NCBI RefSeq assembly: GCF_030373265.1
Contig: NZ_JAUCZC010000004.1
Location: forward strand, 1 to 64,000
DNA from: Blastomonas sp.
Lineage (GTDB): Bacteria > Pseudomonadota > Alphaproteobacteria > Sphingomonadales > Sphingomonadaceae
Length of the DNA: 64,000 nucleotides
Reading direction: 5' to 3'
The position numbers and the translations under genes are program-made. This document shows, piece by piece, positions 27,914 through 48,916 of the stretch. Below the pieces are notes generated by a model. It did no database searches and was not told the origin of the DNA. It saw nothing but the letters and a program-made list of their open reading frames with translations. How positions within the stretch are numbered: position 1 is the first letter of the stretch; every line of letters starts with the position of its first letter.

Positions 27914-27963
27914 CATCTTCCGTCCGCATCCTCGCGCAACTGAGCGATTGCAATCCTTCGCGG

Positions 27964-27989
27964 CTGGTTTAATCATACGATTAAACCAG
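27964..27989. promoter_or_regulatory. Perfect 11-bp inverted repeat upstream of the phosphotransferase operon
   Basis: CTGGTTTAATC (27964-27974), ATAC, GATTAAACCAG (27979-27989). It ends 32 bp before ATG 28022. The right half recurs exactly, as CGATTAAACCAGG, before the P450 gene (35558-35570). The form suits a dimeric TetR- or LacI-type repressor; the protein is not identified. Confidence 0.7.
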
Positions 27990-28021
27990 GACCGGAACGG
28001 ATCCGGCGGAGAGGACGGGGC

Positions 28022-29128
28022 ATGGCGGCGTTTCCGACGCGGGCAGAAGATATCGACCGTGCCTGGCTGCAGGCGCGGCTGGACGCGGCCAACGTGCTCG
28101 ATGGCGCGCACGTCACCGATTTCACCACCACATCGATCGGCACAGGACAGGTGGGCGATACCGTCCGCATCGCGCTGGCCTATGACCGCGCTGCGCCCAA
28201 GGCACCCGCATCCATCGCAGCCAAACTGCCATCGCGCGACGCCACCAGCCGCTCGACCGCGGCGCATTTCCGGCTGTATCTGCGCGAGGTGAACTTCTAC
28301 GCGCGCGTCGCTCCGCTGGTCGCGATGCGCGTTCCCAAGGTTTATGCCGCGCTGATCGATGCGACCGGATGCGATTTCATCCTGCTCTTCGAGGATCTGG
28401 GCCCGGCCAAGGTCGGCGATCAGCTTGCCTCGTGCACCCTCGAGCAAGCCCGGCTGGCAGTTTGCCAGGCGGCATCCTTGCATGCGTCGACCGACAACCT
28501 CCCGGTGCTGGACGAGGACTGGCTTTTGCCCGATCCTGCGGCGCGCGACTGGATCATCCAGGCCTATCCCGGCGCACAAGCGGTGTTTCGCGAGCGCTAT
28601 GCCGGGCAGATCGAGCCCGAACATCTCGCCATCTGCGAGGCCTTGGCCGAAGCAGCCCCACATTGGTTCTCCTGGCAGGCCGGCACCCGCTGCCTGACCC
28701 ATGGCGATTACAGGCTGGACAACATGCTGTTCGATATCCGCGGGGGTGCCGAGCCGATGGCGGTGGTCGACTGGCAGACCTGTGTCACCGGCGCAGGCAC
28801 CACCGACCTTGGCTATCTGCTTGGCACCGGCATCGGCACCGATCTGCGGCGACTGCACGAGGACGACCTGATCGATCTGTATTGCAGCGAGATGACCCGC
28901 CATGGCGTGCCGCGCGATCGCGAGGCGATCTGGGACGATGTCCGCATCGGTGCGCTGTCCGGGCTTTCGACCGCCGTGTTCAGCGCCGCGTTTGTCGAAC
29001 GCACCGAGCGCGGCGATGCCAACTTTCTGTCGATGGCGCGTGGCGCATGCAGCCTGGCCCTCGACCATGACAGCATCGGCGCGCTGTTGCGCCATGCCAA
29101 CCATCGGGCGGAAACAACGACATGCTGA
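28022..29128 (+). CDS. Phosphotransferase (aminoglycoside-phosphotransferase / choline-kinase fold)
   Basis: A 368-residue kinase-fold protein. The N-lobe shows TGQVGDTVRIALAYD and the Lys-bearing strand SIAAKLPS; the C-lobe shows the catalytic loop LTHGDYRLDNMLFD (Brenner motif HGDxxxxN, about residue 225) and the metal-binding Asp in VVDWQ. Such APH/ecdysteroid-kinase-like enzymes phosphorylate hydroxyl groups on small molecules; an antibiotic-resistance role is not implied. Its final 7 nt overlap the next gene, so both are one translational unit. The operon is preceded by a perfect palindrome shared in half with the P450 promoter, suggesting a role in metabolising a hydroxylated substrate. 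Confidence 0.85.
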   Translation: MAAFPTRAEDIDRAWLQARLDAANVLDGAHVTDFTTTSIGTGQVGDTVRIALAYDRAAPKAPASIAAKLPSRDATSRSTAAHFRLYLREVNFYARVAPLVAMRVPKVYAALIDATGCDFILLFEDLGPAKVGDQLASCTLEQARLAVCQAASLHASTDNLPVLDEDWLLPDPAARDWIIQAYPGAQAVFRERYAGQIEPEHLAICEALAEAAPHWFSWQAGTRCLTHGDYRLDNMLFDIRGGAEPMAVVDWQTCVTGAGTTDLGYLLGTGIGTDLRRLHEDDLIDLYCSEMTRHGVPRDREAIWDDVRIGALSGLSTAVFSAAFVERTERGDANFLSMARGACSLALDHDSIGALLRHANHRAETTTC

Positions 29129-30222
29129 CCAAAGGGGACGACTTTCCGCTGCACCAGACTGCCGAGCCGATCGCCTATGCAGGCACCGATCGCAATTTTT
29201 ACGACCGCTATTTCTTCAACGGCTACAATCGGGATGGCTCGGGCTTTTTCGCGCTCGCTTTCGGCGTGTACCCGCATCTTGACATTGCGGACGCCGGCTT
29301 TTCTTTCATTACCAACGGGATACAGCACAATCTGCACGCATCGCGCGAGCTTGGCATGGAGCGGATGGACATGGCCGTCGGCCCGATCCGGATCGAGGTG
29401 ATCGAGCCGCTCGCCCGCTTGCGCATTCGGGTCGATGGCGAAGGCATCCGGGCTGACATCACCTTCACCGGCCGCGCCTTCCCCATCGAGGAGCCGCGAT
29501 TCACCTTCCGCAATGGGCCGCGAACCTTCATGGATTACACGCGGATGACCCAGAACGGGCACTATGTCGGCTGGATCGAGGTTGACGGCGAGCGCACGGA
29601 GCTTGCCCCCGGCTGCGCGGGCACCCGCGATCGCAGCTGGGGCGTTCGCCCGATCGGCGCGCCCGATGCCCAACCCCATGCGGGCAGCGCGCAGCCTGCC
29701 TTTTTCTGGCAATGGACCCCGGTCAATCTTGAACGCCGCAGCCTGTTCTTCCACCTCAACGCCCATCGTTCGGGCACCGCGTGGAACACCCGCGCGGTGA
29801 TCGCGCCCGATGGTGCTGCGCATGACGGATTTTTCGAAACACCCGCCGCGCAACTGGAGCCGAAAATCGAGCCCGGCACGCGCTGGCCTGCAGGCGGCAC
29901 GCTGACGATCCAGACCGGCAACAGGCCGCTCGAGGTGACGTTCGAGCCGATCCAGCGCTTCCAGATGCGCGGGCTGGGGTATACCTGCCCCAGATGGGGC
30001 CATGGCCGTTATCATGGTCCGTTGGTGGTCGAGCGCGACCGGATCGACCTGGCCGCAGTCGATCCATTGGCGCCCAGCATGGAAAACCTGCACGTGCAGA
30101 TCCTCTCGCGCATCACCACCAGCGATGGCGAGCAGGGACTGGGCACGTTCGAGCAACTGGTGCTCGGGCCGTACGATCCATGGGGTCTGACCGGCTATGC
30201 CGATGTACCCGCCATCCGATAA
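29122..30222 (+). CDS. CrtC/DUF7064-like beta-sandwich protein
   Basis: A 366-residue protein with no signal peptide, made mostly of predicted beta strands. Conserved-looking blocks include NFYDRYFFNGYNRDGSGFFA, a strand-rich middle with FTGRAFPIEEPRFTF, the catalytic-looking RDRSWGVRP (Asp and Trp), and FFWQWTPVNLERRSLFFH. The RDxSWGxR motif and lipocalin-like layout recall hydroxyneurosporene synthase (CrtC) and the AttH/DUF7064-7065 proteins, which are hydratases or of unknown role. Related genes are often found near steroid and terpenoid catabolism genes, but that is family memory. It overlaps the phosphotransferase by 7 nt. The exact reaction is unknown. Confidence 0.68.
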   Translation: MLTKGDDFPLHQTAEPIAYAGTDRNFYDRYFFNGYNRDGSGFFALAFGVYPHLDIADAGFSFITNGIQHNLHASRELGMERMDMAVGPIRIEVIEPLARLRIRVDGEGIRADITFTGRAFPIEEPRFTFRNGPRTFMDYTRMTQNGHYVGWIEVDGERTELAPGCAGTRDRSWGVRPIGAPDAQPHAGSAQPAFFWQWTPVNLERRSLFFHLNAHRSGTAWNTRAVIAPDGAAHDGFFETPAAQLEPKIEPGTRWPAGGTLTIQTGNRPLEVTFEPIQRFQMRGLGYTCPRWGHGRYHGPLVVERDRIDLAAVDPLAPSMENLHVQILSRITTSDGEQGLGTFEQLVLGPYDPWGLTGYADVPAIR

Positions 30223-30228
30223 CCGCTG

Positions 30229-31569
30229 CTATTTGCGGTAAACCCGCACGTTCTTGCTAGCCCGCACCTGGGGGCGTTGCGCCACGGGCGCTGCCTGGCT
30301 GGCGACCACCGGTTCGGTACAGCTCGCTGGCGTGATCGTCACCGTGGTGAGGATCGGCGGCGGGTAGTAATAATAATATCCAGGCGGCGGAGGCGGATAG
30401 CCGCCAGGCTGGCCAGGAGGTGGCGGATTGCCCGCGCCATACTGGGCCAGCAGGCGCCGGCAGCGCTCGCGATCCTCGGCCTTGTCGATGACCATACCAG
30501 CAATCGCCCCCACGCCCGCGCCGATCAGCGTGCCGCCGGTGCGGTTGCCGCGCCCGGCGATGCGGTTGCCCGCAAGGCCGCCGATGCCGGCCCCGATGGC
30601 CGCGCCGCCGAGGCCCGTTTCGCGGCGGCAGGCCTCGAGAAACGCAGGGTCATAATCGCCGGCATAGGCCGGCGGCGGAGGAGCCATCGGCGGAGCGACA
30701 TAGCTGGTTCCATACCTTGCGTCGTACCCGTCCTGCGCCTCGCGTGCGAGCAGCCGCTTGCAGCGCTCGCGGTCTTCGGCCCTGTCGATCACCATCCCGG
30801 CGACCGCTCCTACCCCCGCGCCGATCAATGTGCCGCCAGTCCGGTTGCCGCGGCCGGCGATGCGATTGCCTGCCAAGCCGCCCGCAGCCGCGCCGATCGC
30901 GGCCCCCCCCAGACCGCTGTCGCGGCGGCAGGCTTCCAGAAACGCCGGGTCGTCATAGCGGTCATATTGCGCCACGGGCGGAGGCGGTGCGGGGACAAAG
31001 TCGTCGTCATAATCCATGCGCGGTGTTGCCTGGTCGGCAGTGCGCGCCCAATGCGTGCCGTGCACCACGGCGTCATTGCCCAGCAGCAGATCGCCATCGT
31101 AGTTGTACGGATCGTAATCGGGCGAATAGGTCTGGCTCACCACCGCCTGACCTGCTTGCGCCGCTTGCCAGTCAACCCCCTGAACGCTGTCATAGACCCG
31201 GCCATTGCGGTCGGTCAGCACGGCATCGTCAAAGTAGCGCGACCAGCCATAGCCCTGGGCCGGCCGTGGCAGACCATAGCCTTGCCAGTTGGCGATGTAA
31301 TAGGTCGGCGCTACCCATACGCGCGGCAGCAGGAAGCCGCGAAACGGGCGGACATAAGCCTGCGCCCCCACAGGAAGGCGCGCACCATAGACCGGCCCGG
31401 CTGCGGATCCGCGGTTGAGAGCGCTGCTGGTCTGGAGATCGATTTTGCCTGGATACGCGCGCACCAGCCCCGATTCGGCAGCGGATGCGGGCAAAGCTGC
31501 CACCAAGCCGCCAGCGAGACAGGCCGCAATGCCAGTATCACGCACAAAAGAAAAAGCGCGGCTCTTCAT
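30229..31569 (-). CDS. Exported protein with duplicated glycine-zipper modules
   Basis: A 446-residue envelope protein. It has a signal peptide (to about residue 30), a RcnB-like segment with TYYIANWQGYGLPRP and GYGWSRYFDDAVL, and a run of Asp/Tyr. Then come two glycine-zipper modules 100 residues apart, each containing FLEACRR, GLGGAAIGA, LAGNRIAGRGNRTGGTLIG and AGMVID.AEDRERC. A Pro/Tyr-rich tail follows. Glycine-zipper segments form tightly packed membrane helices. The modules are a recent duplication with an exact 300-bp period. Start ATG 31569 has ggggag upstream. Function unknown; convergent with the CrtC-like gene. Confidence 0.8.
   Translation of the reverse strand: MKSRAFSFVRDTGIAACLAGGLVAALPASAAESGLVRAYPGKIDLQTSSALNRGSAAGPVYGARLPVGAQAYVRPFRGFLLPRVWVAPTYYIANWQGYGLPRPAQGYGWSRYFDDAVLTDRNGRVYDSVQGVDWQAAQAGQAVVSQTYSPDYDPYNYDGDLLLGNDAVVHGTHWARTADQATPRMDYDDDFVPAPPPPVAQYDRYDDPAFLEACRRDSGLGGAAIGAAAGGLAGNRIAGRGNRTGGTLIGAGVGAVAGMVIDRAEDRERCKRLLAREAQDGYDARYGTSYVAPPMAPPPPAYAGDYDPAFLEACRRETGLGGAAIGAGIGGLAGNRIAGRGNRTGGTLIGAGVGAIAGMVIDKAEDRERCRRLLAQYGAGNPPPPGQPGGYPPPPPGYYYYYPPPILTTVTITPASCTEPVVASQAAPVAQRPQVRASKNVRVYRK
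30440..30950 (-). repeat. Two 300-bp-spaced glycine-zipper coding modules
   Basis: The two modules share near-identical DNA: ggcctcgaga at 30631 and ggcttccaga at 30931 are equivalent points, exactly 300 bp apart. Differences are mostly synonymous or conservative (e.g. RDSGLGG versus RETGLGG), so the duplication is kept in frame by selection or is young. Confidence 0.8.
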
Positions 31570-31644
31570 GGTTAACTCCCCTCGGACAATCGGGCTCGCC
31601 TTTTGGGCCGGGCGCCTAGATGCCCCCACGACCTTCCGGCTTGG

Positions 31645-31659
31645 TTAAGCGATTGTTAG
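31645..31659. promoter_or_regulatory. CtrA-box-like site upstream of the glycine-zipper gene
   Basis: TTAA-GCGATTG-TTAG (31645-31659) matches seven of eight bases of the alphaproteobacterial CtrA consensus TTAA-N7-TTAA, 76 bp upstream of ATG 31569. Only a sequence match; a one-off site of this quality can arise by chance. Confidence 0.3.
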
Positions 31660-31762
31660 CATCGGCGAGCCGATTGCACCATTGCACCGATGTAAAACCG
31701 GGCGCATCGCGCGGGGATGTTTCAATTTGGGGCAAAGCGCCGATAAGGGGTGAACGATCGGC

Positions 31763-32245
31763 TCAGATGCGTCCCGCTAGAGTTTTTGCCAACCGCTCGA
31801 TACCGGCGCGATCGTCGGAATCGAACCGAGCCAGATGCGGGCTATCCAGGTCGATGACGTGTGTCACCTGCCCTTCGTGGACCACTGGCACCACCAGTTC
31901 GGACTGGCTGGCGGCATCGCAGGCAATATGTCCCGGAAAGGCGTGAACGTCGTCGACGAGCTGCGTTTCGCCCGACGCGGCCGCAGCGCCGCACACACCG
32001 CTGCCCAAGGCGATGCGGATACAGGCAGGCTTGCCCACAAACGGGCCCAGAACCAGTTCACCGCCAACCATGCGATAGAAGCCCGCCCAATTGAGGCCGG
32101 GAACAAACTGACCAATCAGCGCTGCGACATTGGCCATGTTGGCAACGCCGTCGGCTTCCCCATCAACCAACGCGAGCGCGGCCGAATGAAGGTCATCATA
32201 CAGCTCAGCCTTGGGAATATTTTGATCAATTTCAAAGGTATACAT
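31763..32245 (-). CDS. msrC: Free methionine-(R)-sulfoxide reductase
   Basis: A GAF-domain enzyme (fRMsr) that reduces free Met-R-sulfoxide, restoring methionine after oxidative damage. The 160-residue protein has GLNWAGFYRMVGGELVLGPF and three cysteines at 75, 85 and 109, with spacing identical to C84, C94 and C118 of the E. coli enzyme. Asp and Glu for substrate binding (SELVVPVV, VIDLDSP) are also present. The start is ATG 32245, which removes a basic 49-residue extension that is not part of the family. It follows arfB by 25 bp on the same strand and ends the leftward group. Confidence 0.93.
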   Translation of the reverse strand: MYTFEIDQNIPKAELYDDLHSAALALVDGEADGVANMANVAALIGQFVPGLNWAGFYRMVGGELVLGPFVGKPACIRIALGSGVCGAAAASGETQLVDDVHAFPGHIACDAASQSELVVPVVHEGQVTHVIDLDSPHLARFDSDDRAGIERLAKTLAGRI

Positions 32246-32270
32246 TGCAGGACTTTCAGATGATGCGAGA

Positions 32271-32678
32271 TCAGTCGAAGGCGACGCGGCCGCGGTTCTT
32301 CTTGACCGTCGAACGGTTCTTCTTGCCCGCAAGCCGTTCGGTCTTGCCCACCCGGTTGAGCCGAGAGCGCGCGCGGGTGGCAGGCAGATCATAGGCTTCG
32401 GCCAGCATCGCCGAGATGCGTTCGCGCGCGAGCTTGCGATTGGCTTCCTGCGTGCGATGGTTGCGCGCCAGGATAACCAGTTCGCCGTCCTGGTTGATCT
32501 TGCTTCCAGCCAAGGATTTCAATCGATTATAAACCAATGGTGGCAAACCCAAGGCGAAGATGTTGACGTGCAACTGGACCGCGGTGGCGACCTTGTTGAC
32601 GTTCTGCCCGCCCGGACCCGACGCGGTGATGAACTTTTCCGAAACGATGGCGTGATCGGGAATGGCGATTTCAGGCAT
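32271..32678 (-). CDS. arfB: Alternative ribosome-rescue factor ArfB (YaeJ)
   Basis: ArfB is a codon-independent peptidyl-tRNA hydrolase that frees ribosomes stalled on non-stop mRNAs. The 135-residue protein has the RF-type catalytic loop TASGPGGQNVNK (GGQ at residues 23-25) and the basic C-terminal tail (LAGKKNRSTVKKNRGR) that enters the empty mRNA channel. Domain order and length match ArfB rather than RF1/RF2. The start ATG 32678 overlaps the stop of the RluA-type gene by 8 nt, so the two are translationally coupled. Confidence 0.95.
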   Translation of the reverse strand: MPEIAIPDHAIVSEKFITASGPGGQNVNKVATAVQLHVNIFALGLPPLVYNRLKSLAGSKINQDGELVILARNHRTQEANRKLARERISAMLAEAYDLPATRARSRLNRVGKTERLAGKKNRSTVKKNRGRVAFD

Positions 32679-33363
32679 CCGCCGCCTCCCCTGCCGCAAA
32701 TCCCAGATCGGCAAACCGCTTGGGCATCGGCGCGCGTGCCACGATGGGCGGCTTGTCGCCACGCGGCAGCGTCAGCGCCGCAGCGTGGAGCATCAGGCCG
32801 GATGGGTACGTCCTGCCATAGAAAGGATCGCCCAGCAGCGGCTTGCCCAGACCGTGCAGCGCGTGAACGCGGATCTGGTGGGTGCGGCCGGTTTCGGGGC
32901 GGAATTCGACAAGTGTCAGGCCGTTTGCTGTGGCCACCTGCCGCCAATGGGTGACTGCGCGCTTGCCGCTGGCATCGGGAACGATCCGCCAACCCTCCTC
33001 GGCGGTGCTGGTCTTGCCCAGTGCGATATCGATGGTGCCGCTGTCGTCGGCGAGGTCGCCCTCGACGATGCCGAGATAGGTCTTCTCGGCGGTCCCCGCC
33101 TCGAACGCCGCGCCATAGCGCTTGTGCGCCTTGGCATGCCGCGCGAGCAGCAGGCACCCGGACGTATCCTGGTCGAGCCGGTGCACCGCCAACGGCGAAC
33201 GCTGGAAGCCGAAGCGCAATTGCGTGAGATAGTCATCCAGACTGCGCCCACCCTTGCGCGGCTGGGTGACGGGCAGGCCCGCAGGCTTGTCGATGACGAT
33301 CGCCTCGCCATCGATGAAGGGCAGCGTCCCGGCGACGCAAAACGCTGGTGTGTGAAAACCCAT
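32671..33363 (-). CDS. RluA-family pseudouridine synthase
   Basis: A 230-residue uridine isomerase acting on rRNA or tRNA. The catalytic motif HRLDQDTSGCLLLAR holds the nucleophilic Asp; GRTHQIRVHALHGLGKPLLGD is the downstream family block. It lacks an N-terminal S4 domain, as in RluA and TruC, so the target could be 23S U746, tRNA U32 or U65. The start at ATG 33363 (MGFHTPAFCVAGTLP) gives family-like alignment. It starts 5 bp after the LLM oxidoreductase stop and overlaps arfB, forming an LLM-rlu-arfB-msrC run. Confidence 0.92.
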   Translation of the reverse strand: MGFHTPAFCVAGTLPFIDGEAIVIDKPAGLPVTQPRKGGRSLDDYLTQLRFGFQRSPLAVHRLDQDTSGCLLLARHAKAHKRYGAAFEAGTAEKTYLGIVEGDLADDSGTIDIALGKTSTAEEGWRIVPDASGKRAVTHWRQVATANGLTLVEFRPETGRTHQIRVHALHGLGKPLLGDPFYGRTYPSGLMLHAAALTLPRGDKPPIVARAPMPKRFADLGFAAGEAADA

Positions 33364-33368
33364 GATCG

Positions 33369-34361
33369 TCAGGCTGCCTCGGCAAACGCAAAGCTGCGTG
33401 CGACAAGCTCGATCGCGCGCAGCCGGTCGGTGTGATGATAGGCGTTGCACGAGATCATGACTTCGTCTGCGCCAAAGGCTTCGACCAGCGTCTCGACCTT
33501 GTCGCGGACCACATCGGGCGTTCCGAAGGCGGCGATCCGCGCCTGTGCGCCGACGATCATAGCTTCACGCTCAGTGAACCCCATGTCCCGGCTCTCTTCG
33601 GGCGAAACCGCGGGCTGCTGCCCGCCCCCGAGCAGACGCGCGATATTGAGGAAATAATTCTTGCGCAGCATTTCGGCCTGATCGGCATCGTCGCAGGCAA
33701 AGGCGGTGGTCGCCAGCAAGACGTAAGGCTTGTCGAGCGTTGCGCTGGGGCGGAAATTGTGGCGGTAAAGCTCGGTCAGCCCCGGCGTCGCCTGCGGGTT
33801 GATGAACAAGGCCAGCGCGTAAGGCAGGCCGAGTTGCGCAGCGAGGATCGCGCTGTCCGGACTGGTGCCAAGGATCCACACCGGCACCTCGCCTTCGACT
33901 TCGGGGCTGAGCCGCGGATCGTTGAGCTCGCCGGTCATGTAGCCGACCAGATCGGCAACCTGTTGCGGGAAATCGCGAAAGCTCGGCGGGTGCGGGGCAG
34001 ACAGCGCCGCCGCGACGCGCATTTCGCCACCCGGCGCCCGGCCGACGCCCAGATCGACCCTGCCTGGATAAAGATTGCTCAGCACCGCGAACTGCTCGGC
34101 GACCTTGTAGGCGCTGTAATGCGGCAGCATGACCCCGCCCGAGCCCAGCCGGATGCGCCGCGTCCGCGCGCCCATGGCGGCGATCAGGATTTCAGGCGCG
34201 CTGCCGCACAGGAAGCGGCTGGCATGGTGTTCAGAGACCCAAAGCCGATTATAGCCCAGCGTATCCGCCAATTCGGCCGCCTCGAGCGTTCCGGCGAGTG
34301 CCTCTGCGGCGGAGACATCGGCAAAGCGCACCGACTGATCGAGAAGCGAAATTTGTACCAT
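33369..34361 (-). CDS. LLM class flavin-dependent oxidoreductase
   Basis: A 330-residue TIM-barrel enzyme of the luciferase-like monooxygenase group, resembling the MsnO8-like subfamily. Visible blocks: SLLDQSVRFADVSAAEAL, RLWVSEHHASRFLCG, IRLGSGGVMLPHYSAYKVAE, PGRVDLGVGRAPGG and PVWILGTSPDSAILAAQLGLPYALALF. Such proteins use FMN or F420 and aldehydes or other small substrates; this one's substrate is unknown. Start ATG 34361 follows a plausible site; the longer frame adds 14 residues with no family support. It is the first gene of the leftward run to msrC. Confidence 0.9.
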   Translation of the reverse strand: MVQISLLDQSVRFADVSAAEALAGTLEAAELADTLGYNRLWVSEHHASRFLCGSAPEILIAAMGARTRRIRLGSGGVMLPHYSAYKVAEQFAVLSNLYPGRVDLGVGRAPGGEMRVAAALSAPHPPSFRDFPQQVADLVGYMTGELNDPRLSPEVEGEVPVWILGTSPDSAILAAQLGLPYALALFINPQATPGLTELYRHNFRPSATLDKPYVLLATTAFACDDADQAEMLRKNYFLNIARLLGGGQQPAVSPEESRDMGFTEREAMIVGAQARIAAFGTPDVVRDKVETLVEAFGADEVMISCNAYHHTDRLRAIELVARSFAFAEAA

Positions 34362-34472
34362 GCCCTCAATGATAGGGCTTTTGGGGCCGGTCACAAGCCC
34401 CACCCGTTGCGGCTCGAGGGCCTGGCCGCCCGAGGGTGACGCCCCGCGACGGTGCGCGGGGCGTTTGAGCGA

Positions 34473-35402
34473 TCAGTTATTTTGGTTGTCTTGCGGACGC
34501 AGCCCAGACATATCCATGCCTCCGCGGGGCGCAGACCCTGGGGACCTTTCGATCCGCTGCTGGCGCTGGGGCCGTGGCGCGCGCTCGACACGCGGCGGAG
34601 CAGTTCCTGGCTGCGCCTGCGGCGAAGGCCGGCGCATCGACGGACGCTCGCGCCCTTCAGCGCCCCTGCCCTGCCGACCGGTCACACCCTGCCCGGGACT
34701 GCCCTGGCGGTTGCCCTGCCAGTTGCGACGCCCTTCGCGCTGCGCTCCGGGCCGCTCTGCTCCGGGCTGACCGATGGCCTGCTGCTGGCGCTGCTGCCAG
34801 CGTTCCATCCGCTGCTGGCGATCTTCGGGCGTCAGGCCACCCATCCGCTCGCGTTCACCGCGCCGGGTGCGGGGAACCTCGCCAGTATTGCCACGCCGCT
34901 CCTGCCGCCAGTCGCGCCGGTCGTCCAGCGTCTCGCGCCGATTGTCGCGGCGGAAATCACGGCGATCTTCACGCCGGTCCTGCCGGATATCCTGCCGATT
35001 GCCACGCCGCTGCTGCTGATACTGCCAGCGCTGCTGGCCCCAATATTGCCGCTGACGGTCCTGCATCGCAAACCGCCGTCCGCCGGGGCGGTCGTACAGC
35101 CAGGTGCCGTGACCGGGGTAATAGAAATTGTCGTAATAGCCGCCGCCAAAGCCGATCTGGCCGAAGCCGAGGCCGGCATCGCAACCGTAAAAGCTGTCCC
35201 AGGCCGAATAGCCGTCGCAATAGGGATCGTAGCCGCCGGCATAGCCACCGCCGCCGACACCGACACCGATGCCGCCATAGCCGCCATAGTTGCCACCGCC
35301 ATACGCGCAGGCAGACAGAGAAACCGCGCCCAGTGCGATGGCGGCGATGCGGATAACCTTGCGGCCATTGTTCTGAAGGAATGAAAATCGGGTCAAAGCC
35401 AT
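34473..35402 (-). CDS. Arg/Gln-rich putative lipoprotein
   Basis: A 309-residue exported protein with an N-terminal signal ending in LSAC (Cys about 32), a plausible lipobox, so likely outer-membrane anchored. The mature part starts with a Gly/Tyr-rich region (GGGNYGGYGGIGVGVGGGGY, then four Cys/Tyr-containing turns), followed by about 180 residues made almost entirely of Arg, Gln, Asp and Glu (DRREDRRDFRRDNRRETLDD, QRMERWQQRQQQ), ending Pro/Arg-rich. No family is recognised. The basic tail could bind nucleic acid or surface polymers, but that is speculation. Start ATG 35402 has no strong ribosome-binding site. Confidence 0.72.
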   Translation of the reverse strand: MALTRFSFLQNNGRKVIRIAAIALGAVSLSACAYGGGNYGGYGGIGVGVGGGGYAGGYDPYCDGYSAWDSFYGCDAGLGFGQIGFGGGYYDNFYYPGHGTWLYDRPGGRRFAMQDRQRQYWGQQRWQYQQQRRGNRQDIRQDRREDRRDFRRDNRRETLDDRRDWRQERRGNTGEVPRTRRGERERMGGLTPEDRQQRMERWQQRQQQAIGQPGAERPGAQREGRRNWQGNRQGSPGQGVTGRQGRGAEGRERPSMRRPSPQAQPGTAPPRVERAPRPQRQQRIERSPGSAPRGGMDMSGLRPQDNQNN

Positions 35403-35541
35403 GGTATCCTGTCTCGCCGCATGATCTGGCGCGGCGGGCCGGCGGAGCGGGGCTCCGATGTTTCGTTCATATAACTGCCAAGTTGAATTAACGATGAATA
35501 GCCATCGGTTCGCAGACAGTGCTTGCTAACATTGGTGTCAG

Positions 35542-35570
35542 TTGGTATTTAATGGATCGATTAAACCAGG
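35542..35570 (+). promoter_or_regulatory. Operator-like site before the P450 gene
   Basis: The 13-bp CGATTAAACCAGG (35558-35570) is identical to 27978-27990, the right half of the palindrome before the phosphotransferase operon. A weaker left half, TTGGTATTTAAT (35542-35553), supplies the second arm with two insertions relative to the perfect site. The site ends 15 bp before ATG 35585. Confidence 0.6.
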
Positions 35571-43954: not shown

Positions 43955-44611
43955 TCAGTCGGCTGGTGCACCAATCGATCCGCGATCGACCATCGCACAC
44001 AGCATATCGGTGACCAAAGCGACGGGCGTGGTATCCCGGCGGCAGCGGGCGAGCAGCATGGCGCCCTCGTGCGAGGCAATGATGGTGGCGGCGATATCGC
44101 GTGCGCGTGCCACCGCGACACCCTCCAGCATCAACCATTTGGCCAGCCGCATTTCGATCCGCTGGTAGGCAATGCGCACCGCATCGGCCAAAGCGCTGTC
44201 ATCGCCGCCCTGCTCTTGACCGATCACCGCCAGCAGGGAGCCGTCGCGCCAGTCAGTCCGCTCCAACCAAGCCGAGGACTCCTCGCCCAACTGGCGCAAG
44301 AACCCAATGATATCAGTGCCTTTGGCAGATGCCTCATCGAGCGCGGCCAGCGTGCTCGCGGCGATGCGCGTGATACAAGCCTCGGCGAGTTCAGGCTTCC
44401 CACCCGGAAAGTGATGGTACAGCGAGCCTTTCGGCGTCTCGGACAATGCCAGGATTTCGGCGAGGCCGACCGCATGATACCCACGCTGCTGGAACAGGCG
44501 GGTCGCCACCTGCAGCAATCGCAGCCGGGTTGGATGGATATCGAGCGCGGCCTTGGGGTCTGCGGCGCCGGCGGAACGCACAACGCCATCGTTGGAGACA
44601 AAAAGCATCAT
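43955..44611 (-). CDS. TetR/AcrR family transcriptional regulator
   Basis: A 218-residue repressor. The DNA-binding domain is about 28-75 (TRLRLLQVATRLFQQRGYHA, VGLAEILALSETPKGSLYHHF), the standard TetR HTH, followed by a TetR_C_33-like ligand domain. It begins at ATG 44611 or the adjacent ATG 44608. An imperfect palindrome matching the operator family covers its start region (44612-44625), so autoregulation is likely. Other copies lie before the DLH gene and before the thioesterase gene, so the regulator probably controls all three. Its inducer is probably an acyl or ring-derived compound, which is inference. Confidence 0.92.
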   Translation of the reverse strand: MMLFVSNDGVVRSAGAADPKAALDIHPTRLRLLQVATRLFQQRGYHAVGLAEILALSETPKGSLYHHFPGGKPELAEACITRIAASTLAALDEASAKGTDIIGFLRQLGEESSAWLERTDWRDGSLLAVIGQEQGGDDSALADAVRIAYQRIEMRLAKWLMLEGVAVARARDIAATIIASHEGAMLLARCRRDTTPVALVTDMLCAMVDRGSIGAPAD

Positions 44612-47898: not shown

Positions 47899-47917
47899 GT
47901 TAACCTCCCGGTTAAAC
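47899..47917. promoter_or_regulatory. Palindrome before the alpha/beta hydrolase
   Basis: TTAACC (47900-47905), TCCC, GGTTAA (47910-47915), about 24 bp before ATG 47939. It resembles a small operator; it is not a CtrA box, since the spacer between the TTAA blocks is 8, not 7. Confidence 0.35.
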
Positions 47918-47938
47918 ACACCAGAGAGGATGATACCG

Positions 47939-48916
47939 ATGAGCGACACCATCGAACTGCAGCGCGATGCCGACGCACCGACAGGCCCGTTCGTTCGGCC
48001 CGACGTCGCGATGCTGCTGGCCATGCTGTCCGCATCGGGCACTCCGCCGATGAACGAGCTGAGCCCGGCCGATGCACGCGAAGCCTATCGCATGATGCGT
48101 TTTCTCGCCGATGCCGAGCCCACCGACCTTGCGATCGTGCGCGACCTGACCTGCCCGGGCCCCGCTGGCGATATCGGCCTGCGCTATTATGACGCGCGCG
48201 AAAGCCGCGAGCCGGGCCCTGCGATCATGTTCTTCCACGGCGGTGGCTTCGTCATCGGCGATCTGGATACGCATCACCCCTATTGCACCGAGTTAGCGGC
48301 GAAGATGGATCTGCCGGTGGTGGCGGTGGATTATCGCCTTGCGCCCGAACACCCCTTCCCTGCAGCAACGGACGATTGCGAGGCCGCAGCACGCTGGCTG
48401 GCGGATAACGGCGAGGCCCTGGGCCTCGACATCACCGGGCTGGTTTTCACCGGCGACAGCGCGGGCGGCAACCTTGCGATCGTCACCACCCAGGCGTTGA
48501 TCGCCAAGCCCGCCGCGGTTCCGGTAATTGCCCAGGCTCCGCTGTATCCCGTGGTCGATTCGACACAAACCAGCGGCTCGTTCACCGAATTTGCCGAGGG
48601 TTATCTCCTCACTGCCGATACGATGAACTGGTTCGGCGAACGGTATGCCGGCGTTCCCGGTGATCTGCGGAACGACTGCATCAACGGCGATCTTTCCAGC
48701 CTGCCACCCACGCTGCTGGTCACCGCAGGACTCGATCCGCTGCGCGATCAGGGCCGCGATTTCGCAGCACGCGCGATCCAGGCGGGGGTCGATGTTACCT
48801 TTATGGAGATGCGCGGCACGATCCACGGCTTCATCTGCCTGCGCAAGGGCATCCCCTCGGCGCAGGACGATTGCGATGCGATCTTCCGCGGGATGAAAGC
48901 GATGCTGGCGCTGTGA
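47939..48916 (+). CDS. Alpha/beta hydrolase of the hormone-sensitive lipase family
   Basis: A 325-residue carboxylesterase. The HSL oxyanion motif HGGGFVIGD (about residues 101-109) and the nucleophile elbow GDSAGGNLA (about 176-184, Ser) are intact. The catalytic Asp and His are expected in TAGLDPLRDQG and HGFICLRKG. Class IV (HSL) bacterial esterases hydrolyse short acyl esters. Start ATG 47939 has gagagg 9 nt upstream; an in-frame ATG at 47930 is less well placed. Its stop (TGA) overlaps the next start as GTGA, so the downstream frameshifted gene was co-translated. Confidence 0.93.
   Translation: MSDTIELQRDADAPTGPFVRPDVAMLLAMLSASGTPPMNELSPADAREAYRMMRFLADAEPTDLAIVRDLTCPGPAGDIGLRYYDARESREPGPAIMFFHGGGFVIGDLDTHHPYCTELAAKMDLPVVAVDYRLAPEHPFPAATDDCEAAARWLADNGEALGLDITGLVFTGDSAGGNLAIVTTQALIAKPAAVPVIAQAPLYPVVDSTQTSGSFTEFAEGYLLTADTMNWFGERYAGVPGDLRNDCINGDLSSLPPTLLVTAGLDPLRDQGRDFAARAIQAGVDVTFMEMRGTIHGFICLRKGIPSAQDDCDAIFRGMKAMLAL

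Follow-up and report, generated by a model that had tools for sequence, protein, structure and literature searches.

In a 64,000-nucleotide stretch of a Blastomonas genome (Sphingomonadaceae; assembly GCF_030373265.1, contig NZ_JAUCZC010000004.1, positions 1 to 64,000 of the forward strand; the whole stretch is called the window below), two palindromes of related sequence stand immediately upstream of a kinase-lyase operon and of a cytochrome P450 gene, and their common core recurs at a scattered set of metabolic genes throughout the genus. We propose, with moderate confidence, that both palindromes are operators of a single autoregulated TetR repressor, and that the regulon oxidises an isoprenoid or terpenoid skeleton from which the kinase-lyase pair removes a tertiary hydroxyl group.

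Two window palindromes and their genus-wide motif

A preliminary description of this DNA had placed a perfect palindrome 32 bp before the operon at 28022, and had seen its right half recur, 13 bases of 13, before the P450 gene. The palindrome is present as described (operator 1, Table 1), with 32 bp between its end and the ATG of the kinase operon. The second match stands in its core: GATTAAACCAG(G) recurs at 35559-35569, 15 bp separating its end from the P450 ATG (35585). The count of 13 overstates the true motif, since the CCAG flank of both window sites is weakly conserved across the genus. In the genus-wide motif TTTAA and TTAAA are fixed by the search pattern, the inner C and G carry approximately 1.15-1.29 bits, and the free flanks, four positions of CCAG included, carry 0.06-0.29 bits per position. 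Nor is the P450 site a lone half-site, as had been thought. It is itself an inverted repeat (operator 2), whose arms TTTAATGGA and TCGATTAAA are 89% complementary.

Both strands of the source genome (3,658,526 bases in 58 contigs, 95.83% complete) were searched for the motif, with the same search read backward as a control. The 11-mer GATTAAACCAG occurs three times, always within the two window sites, against an expectation from base composition of approximately 0.46 and a control count of zero. The pattern TTTAAT-N6-ATTAAA with at most one mismatch is found in seven places, and the core TTTAAYNRNNYNRTTAAA exactly at eight sites; both controls are again zero. These exact-pattern counts were made independently of the weight matrix used below, with a pattern that was refined on this genome before being applied to eight others. 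The matrix itself was built from 12 sites of this genome, both window sites included, and the scores of those two therefore follow from its construction.

Apart from the two window genes, the targets with exact sites are a family III CoA-transferase gene (on the opposite side, approximately 245 bp away, a TonB receptor gene begins), a thiolase operon (thiolase - short-chain dehydrogenase/reductase (SDR) - enoyl-CoA hydratase - TetR), an operon of FadD4-like ligase, CYP108 and aldehyde dehydrogenase (ALDH), a VOC gene adjoining a pyrroloquinoline quinone (PQQ) dehydrogenase gene, a second thiolase gene, and an operon for two acyl-CoA dehydrogenases (ACADs) and an EchA19-like protein. The CYP108 label of the P450 in the ligase operon follows from its best PDB matches, P450-terp and 3tkt. 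The nearest PDB entries to ACAD1 are 4x28 and Tcur3483, both with a role on steroid side chains. Six further sites in this genome carry one mismatch. Those before the HSL-type esterase of the window (contig C4), an ACAD gene (C6) and a nitroreductase gene (C9) look meaningful; another, on C30, precedes an AraC gene, no gene start is called within 450 bp of the site on C19, and the last lies at C17:791.

Conservation within the genus is extensive. Each of nine Blastomonas genomes contains 7-10 exact copies of TTTAAYNRNNYNRTTAAA, 74 in total, with a control count of zero in every genome, and all of these sites lie just upstream of metabolic genes. Sixty-seven were tied to their target start by tblastn, at distances of 4 to 93 bp, and the other seven by gene calls. 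The longest open reading frame of several genes (e.g. ACAD-1 in four genomes) starts upstream of the site, and a later start codon was therefore assumed. Six units retain their site in 9/9 genomes: the kinase operon, where operator 1 is kept before the orthologous kinase gene, the window P450, thiolase-1, the ligase-CYP108-ALDH operon, thiolase-2 and the ACAD-1 (ACAD-ACAD-hydratase) operon. Less constant targets are the CoA-transferase, VOC/PQQ and nitroreductase genes (five sites each) and ACAD-3 (two sites), and three more sites precede ACADs 31-32% identical to ACAD-3. The motif has thus not proved common away from promoters, and its search brought further regulon loci to light; the earlier suggestion of one regulon for the P450, the phosphotransferase and the gene sharing its operon gains support from the same genes carrying sites in all nine genomes.

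In alignments of the two window promoters (eight Blastomonas rows each), the most conspicuous features are the palindrome and a TTGC block upstream of it: GATTGC is invariant in the kinase-operon promoters, as are CTTGCTAACAT and TATTTAATGG in those of the P450 gene. Judged from sequence, operator 2 would cover the -10 element and +1 of a putative P450 promoter. Of the 66 exact sites beyond the source genome, 48 entered the wider promoter listing.

Beyond the genus, exact sites were found in 16 genomes of a 119-genome family sample, 12 of them with two or more, against control sites in five (six in genome G075 and one each in G032, G044, G114 and G124). Forty stretches around a selection of sites were taken from G030, G033, G067, G094, G114 and G117, and TetR loci from G066, G075, G076 and G096. 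In the first six of these genomes, which represent five other genera, the site neighbours include thiolases, ACADs, ligase-CYP108 operons and SDRs, together with GMC oxidoreductases (three genomes) and APH kinases (two); 7 of the 45 site rows have no gene called nearby. Two further arrangements were observed among these loci. In three genera (G067, G094 and G114; loci L231, L234 and L261) the motif lies immediately before a gene for a MoxR-type AAA ATPase, and in G033 and G117 it precedes an APH-DUF6285 kinase gene followed by an acyl-CoA dehydrogenase gene, an order resembling a split ACAD10/11 (L247:412-3065, L263:342-2995).

The putative kinase-lyase operon

The product of the gene at 29122 had been described as CrtC-like. 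At E 0.1 it has no Pfam match, its likeness in this direction being a distant one of fold, to AttH 2ich (E 8e-9), and CrtC membership was rejected. Instead, the protein scores 399.4 bits against the Rv3169 family NF053593 (cut-off 150) and is a homologue of 25-phosphosteroid lyase (25-PSL). Its AlphaFold model (mean predicted local distance difference test score 80.9, predicted template modelling (TM) score 0.84, residues 1-22 mostly poor) retrieves 25-PSL as the first five Foldseek matches (9g4c, 9g2i, 9fzn; TM approximately 0.8, E approximately 1e-26 to 1e-27), with Phm7, kievitone hydratase and AttH ranking well behind, and a sequence profile of the family run against the PDB at E 0.01 finds this lyase and nothing else (7.8e-54, 4.8e-53). 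The lyase alignment comprises 32 rows and leaves out L154 (stop codon), L165, L186 and L221.

The lyase gene overlaps the preceding kinase gene by seven bases, and the two genes keep company widely. A kinase is present in 77 of 80 named loci, 76 of which carry each of the two kinase motifs, and it ends no more than 127 nt from the lyase gene in 75 of the 77, the distance being approximately 460 nt in L188 and L192. Sixteen of the 73 available rows, window included, form the kinase alignment. On this sequence evidence the pair probably dehydrates a tertiary alcohol using ATP.

The precedent for this chemistry is Sterolibacterium denitrificans, in which a kinase (25-HSK) and 25-PSL together dehydrate a tertiary alcohol with ATP (PMC8449060, PMC7411048, PMC11061730). 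In 2021 the Sterolibacterium lyase gene had yet to be identified, the surroundings of the kinase gene offering no candidate, and in 2024 it was still termed 'putative'. The window operon resembles this system in joining a kinase, placed by its APH/EcKL family and motifs, to a homologous lyase, with ATP-dependent removal of a tertiary alcohol as the proposed outcome. It differs in that the two genes are adjacent and stand in an aerobic, P450-linked setting, and in that a steroid substrate is unlikely here. The steroid-ring gene KshA (PF19298) was not found in the source genome, which at 95.83% completeness may have lost a gene to the assembly; classical steroid-ring degradation was set aside as unlikely for this reason.

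Upstream of the kinase gene, a palindrome with a matrix score of at least 14 lies within 150 nt in 40 of 75 named loci, and in 34 of 69 outside Blastomonas, whereas that score is reached by 13 of 1875 stretches drawn at random from those loci. The scan took in 75 of the 77 kinase-bearing loci, the other two having less than 110 nt of upstream sequence. Outside Blastomonas the operator form often shifts towards TTTAARCG/CGCTTAAA or CGTTTAAA, and loci titled Erythrobacter, Qipengyuania, Altererythrobacter or close genera fall below the threshold before the kinase. Several Erythrobacteraceae loci where the palindrome is missing (L183, L191, L209, L211, L217, L220, L224 and L228) share a recurring TCCATTCGAGCGGTCCGTTCATG-like sequence upstream of the kinase, perhaps another operator.

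A second cassette on contig C13 of the source genome (L292:7341-11074), which counts in favour of the proposed model, consists of adjacent genes for a P450, a DUF7065/Rv3169-like protein and an APH kinase, near ligase and amidohydrolase-like genes. No operator was found at this cassette, and its DUF7065/Rv3169-like gene bears a weak likeness to the window lyase family (hhalign probability 84%). In the window, the lyase gene is adjoined on one side by a gene (30229-31629, minus strand) whose predicted product contains two glycine-rich repeats that are nearly identical (GLGGAAIGA...GNRTGGTLIGAGVGA).

Table 1. Operators, putative promoter elements and genes of the proposed regulon within the window.
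Feature	Position	Strand	Description
Possible -35 element of kinase-lyase operon	27948..27953	+	TTGCAA; putative promoter role
Operator 1	27964..27989	.	CTGGTTTAATC-ATAC-GATTAAACCAG; perfect 11-bp inverted repeat with 4-bp spacer; core 27968-27985
Kinase gene	28022..29128	+	EcKL/APH fold, HGDYRLDN and DWQ motifs; proposed tertiary-alcohol kinase
Rv3169-family gene	29122..30222	+	25-phosphosteroid lyase homologue (earlier 'CrtC-like'); putative lyase activity
Possible P450 promoter	35523..35551	+	TTGCTA-N17-TATTTA; -10 overlaps operator 2; putative role
Operator 2	35548..35565	.	Imperfect palindrome TTTAATGGATCGATTAAA; before P450 in 9/9 Blastomonas genomes
Cytochrome P450 gene	35585..37006	+	Closest in PDB to CYP120, then CYP51 types
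Weaker candidate operator	47899..47916	.	One mismatch; 13 bp before the open reading frame at 47930
HSL-type esterase gene	47930..48916	+	Possible further regulon member; LipP1 295 bits, below the cut-off of 350

A TetR candidate for the regulator

The best regulator candidate for the motif, judging by its distribution and gene order, is a TetR protein encoded outside the window (G000:C9:92925-93572, minus strand). Its gene is the last of the thiolase operon and its start overlaps the end of the hydratase gene; because this operon bears an operator, the TetR would be autoregulated. The protein is a close relative of PDB 2QTQ/2RHA, an entry without an assigned role, and is of the TetR_C_9 type (179.4 bits, cut-off 25.3). 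For the TetR_N domain it scores 24.8 bits against a cut-off of 24 in the genome search, and 21.9, below that cut-off, when the shorter protein is used. Neither KstR nor KstR2 is named among its 27 PDB matches.

This is the sole TetR of the source genome with relatives recurring in site loci, and it is linked to a target operon in every one of the eight Blastomonas relatives as well as in four genomes from other genera. Orthologues (at least 56% identity) occur in 13 of the 119 family genomes, every one of which has the motif; among the 106 genomes lacking an orthologue, three have it, with a single site each. The association has a Fisher p of 7e-15 by genome and 6e-12 by genus, values that ignore phylogeny and are inflated by shared ancestry. 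Within the DNA-binding domain, GLNSALVKYYFGNK is identical in 12 aligned orthologues and in 2QTQ and differs in three 40% relatives, in an alignment that omits L278 (from G075, with an in-frame stop) and some remoter matches. Of the 13 orthologue loci, 9 have a hydratase gene called next to the TetR gene, and in L281 an SDR gene directly precedes it; gene calls are ambiguous in L273, L274 and L278. The TetR gene of the window itself (43955-44611, LmrA/YxaF-like) was considered and rejected, its product having no close relative in the site loci fetched from other genomes.

Proposed pathway, alternatives and known systems

We suggest the following mechanism for the regulon. By occupying TTTAAYCGNNCGRTTAAA, a TetR dimer would keep at least eight transcription units shut at their start regions until displaced from the DNA by an acyl-CoA-like or terpenoid effector. 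The P450s would hydroxylate an isoprenoid or terpenoid carbon skeleton, the aldehyde dehydrogenase and acyl-CoA ligase would form a CoA ester, and this would be degraded by the ACADs, hydratases, thiolases and a family III CoA-transferase/racemase-like enzyme. The kinase would phosphorylate a tertiary hydroxyl and the lyase eliminate the phosphate to leave an alkene. The TonB receptor, both P450s, the PQQ dehydrogenase, ALDH, ligase and CoA-transferase, together with the ACAD pair, hydratases, thiolases and kinase-lyase pair, fit the breakdown of a branched isoprenoid or terpenoid acid with a tertiary alcohol. One regulon P450 matches P450-terp, whose substrate is alpha-terpineol, a tertiary alcohol. 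A monoterpenoid is therefore plausible, and the identity of the substrate is a guess.

Several observations weigh against this model. The VOC, nitroreductase and MoxR targets have no clear place in a terpenoid pathway, and the kinase is only weakly similar (E 0.22) to 3ats (Rv3168). The P450 orthologue is widespread, yet a strong near-upstream site was found in 3 of 30 family loci (L068, L069 and L070), with a weaker one in L083. At two mismatches the motif is not enriched in the source genome (41 matches against 76 in the control), and we therefore used exact or one-mismatch sites only. A TTG at one fixed upstream distance is seen in only two or three of the six target groups, which leaves the two window promoters as the basis of the promoter-overlap idea. 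The TetR gene has no site directly in front of it. The co-distribution of TetR and motif is partly phylogeny, as a control TetR of the source genome (at least 55% identity) occurs in eight genomes, seven of them motif-bearing. Finally, G075 is a poor case, with nine sites against six in the control and a TetR match interrupted by an in-frame stop.

The main rival is a general regulon of fatty-acid/acyl-CoA beta-oxidation under an analogue of PsrA, FadR or FadP, in which the P450s and the kinase-lyase pair would be side members that clear acyl chains bearing hydroxyl groups or branches. Thiolases, ACADs, hydratases and ligases do make up most targets, here and in other genera, and PsrA and FadP of proteobacteria are likewise TetR proteins that each control many acyl-CoA genes in large fatty-acid regulons (PMC5343134). 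FadP is unique to betaproteobacteria within the set of that paper, whose available parts include no sphingomonad counterpart. We nonetheless regard a general fatty-acid regulon as rather unlikely, given that the six units conserved in every Blastomonas genome include two P450s, the ligase-CYP108-ALDH operon and the kinase-lyase operon, and that the closest matches of the ACAD pair are 4x28 and Tcur3483. A similar degree of doubt attaches to the idea that the kinase and lyase act on some other phosphorylatable group, such as a primary alcohol or a 4-hydroxyacyl-CoA. The ACAD11 kinase domain is among the nearest PDB sequences of the kinase (E 3.4e-8 over approximately 60 residues), ACAD10/11 phosphorylate 4-hydroxyacyl-CoAs, the hydroxyl being phosphorylated ahead of elimination (PMC12440821, PMC11342911), and 25-HSK also accepts primary 26-hydroxysteroids (PMC8449060). 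On the other side, the lyase matches 25-PSL, which has a tertiary-phosphoester substrate, far better than any other PDB fold.

It is quite improbable, in our view, that another protein binds the motif and that the TetR accompanies it through shared ancestry and operon membership. The control TetR shows that a second regulator can track part of the motif-bearing clade, the regulator survey covered TetR genes only, and the link between TetR and operator is drawn from sequence. However, the control misses 5 of the 12 genomes having two or more sites, while the candidate is matched by the motif in 13/13 genomes (3/106 elsewhere) and keeps its operon linkage across genera. That the sequence shared by the two window sites is a chance match has a negligible probability, in agreement with the preliminary description. 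Within the window alone, counts at up to two mismatches are near expectation and unremarkable (9 matches against a shuffle mean of 5.45, with 9 of 100 shuffles reaching 9), but the 11-mer is rare genome-wide, and both genes keep their sites in all nine genomes against a control of zero.

TetR catabolic regulons are a known kind, and a close parallel to the regulon proposed here is found in Mycobacterium tuberculosis, in which the TetR protein Rv3167c binds a palindrome and represses Rv3168-Rv3169 within a regulon extending to lipid genes; Rv3169 is strongly upregulated upon loss of Rv3167c (PMC5340868). The likeness is one of layout, with a TetR and an upstream palindrome over a phosphotransferase and Rv3169 operon and lipid genes in the regulon. 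Rv3167c is encoded by an adjacent, divergent gene, whereas the candidate TetR gene is unlinked to the kinase-lyase operon and resides in a thiolase operon. The KstR/KstR2 cholesterol regulons of actinobacteria also combine TetR repressors, palindromic operators and scattered side-chain catabolism genes, but the KstR2 operator (AnCAAGnnCTTGnT, PMC3068626) is unrelated to the motif described here, and the source genome yielded no KshA. A bile-salt study of Caenibius (PMC12882949) names other palindromes. Searches of mainly open-access literature returned, among the matches listed, no relevant paper on 2QTQ/2RHA, on a sphingomonad operator, TetR or fatty-acid regulon, or on CYP108D1 with a TetR, and no description of the operator, its regulator, the P450 link or an assignment of the Rv3169 family as lyases.

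More generally, it is possible, and we put this forward tentatively, that Rv3169-family proteins are phospho-lyases acting jointly with an APH/EcKL kinase encoded next to them, so that tertiary isoprenoid alcohols are dehydrated at the expense of ATP, a function that would be widespread in aerobes and wired by a TetR to P450s in sphingomonads. If true, a chemistry previously described in anaerobic sterol degradation would extend to aerobic bacteria, where it would be joined to oxygen-dependent P450 chemistry, and a function would be suggested for Rv3168-Rv3169 of M. tuberculosis. Overall, the model offers a testable function for three orphans: the 2QTQ/2RHA-like TetR, a sphingomonad regulon whose scattered units share a defined operator, and the Rv3169 family.

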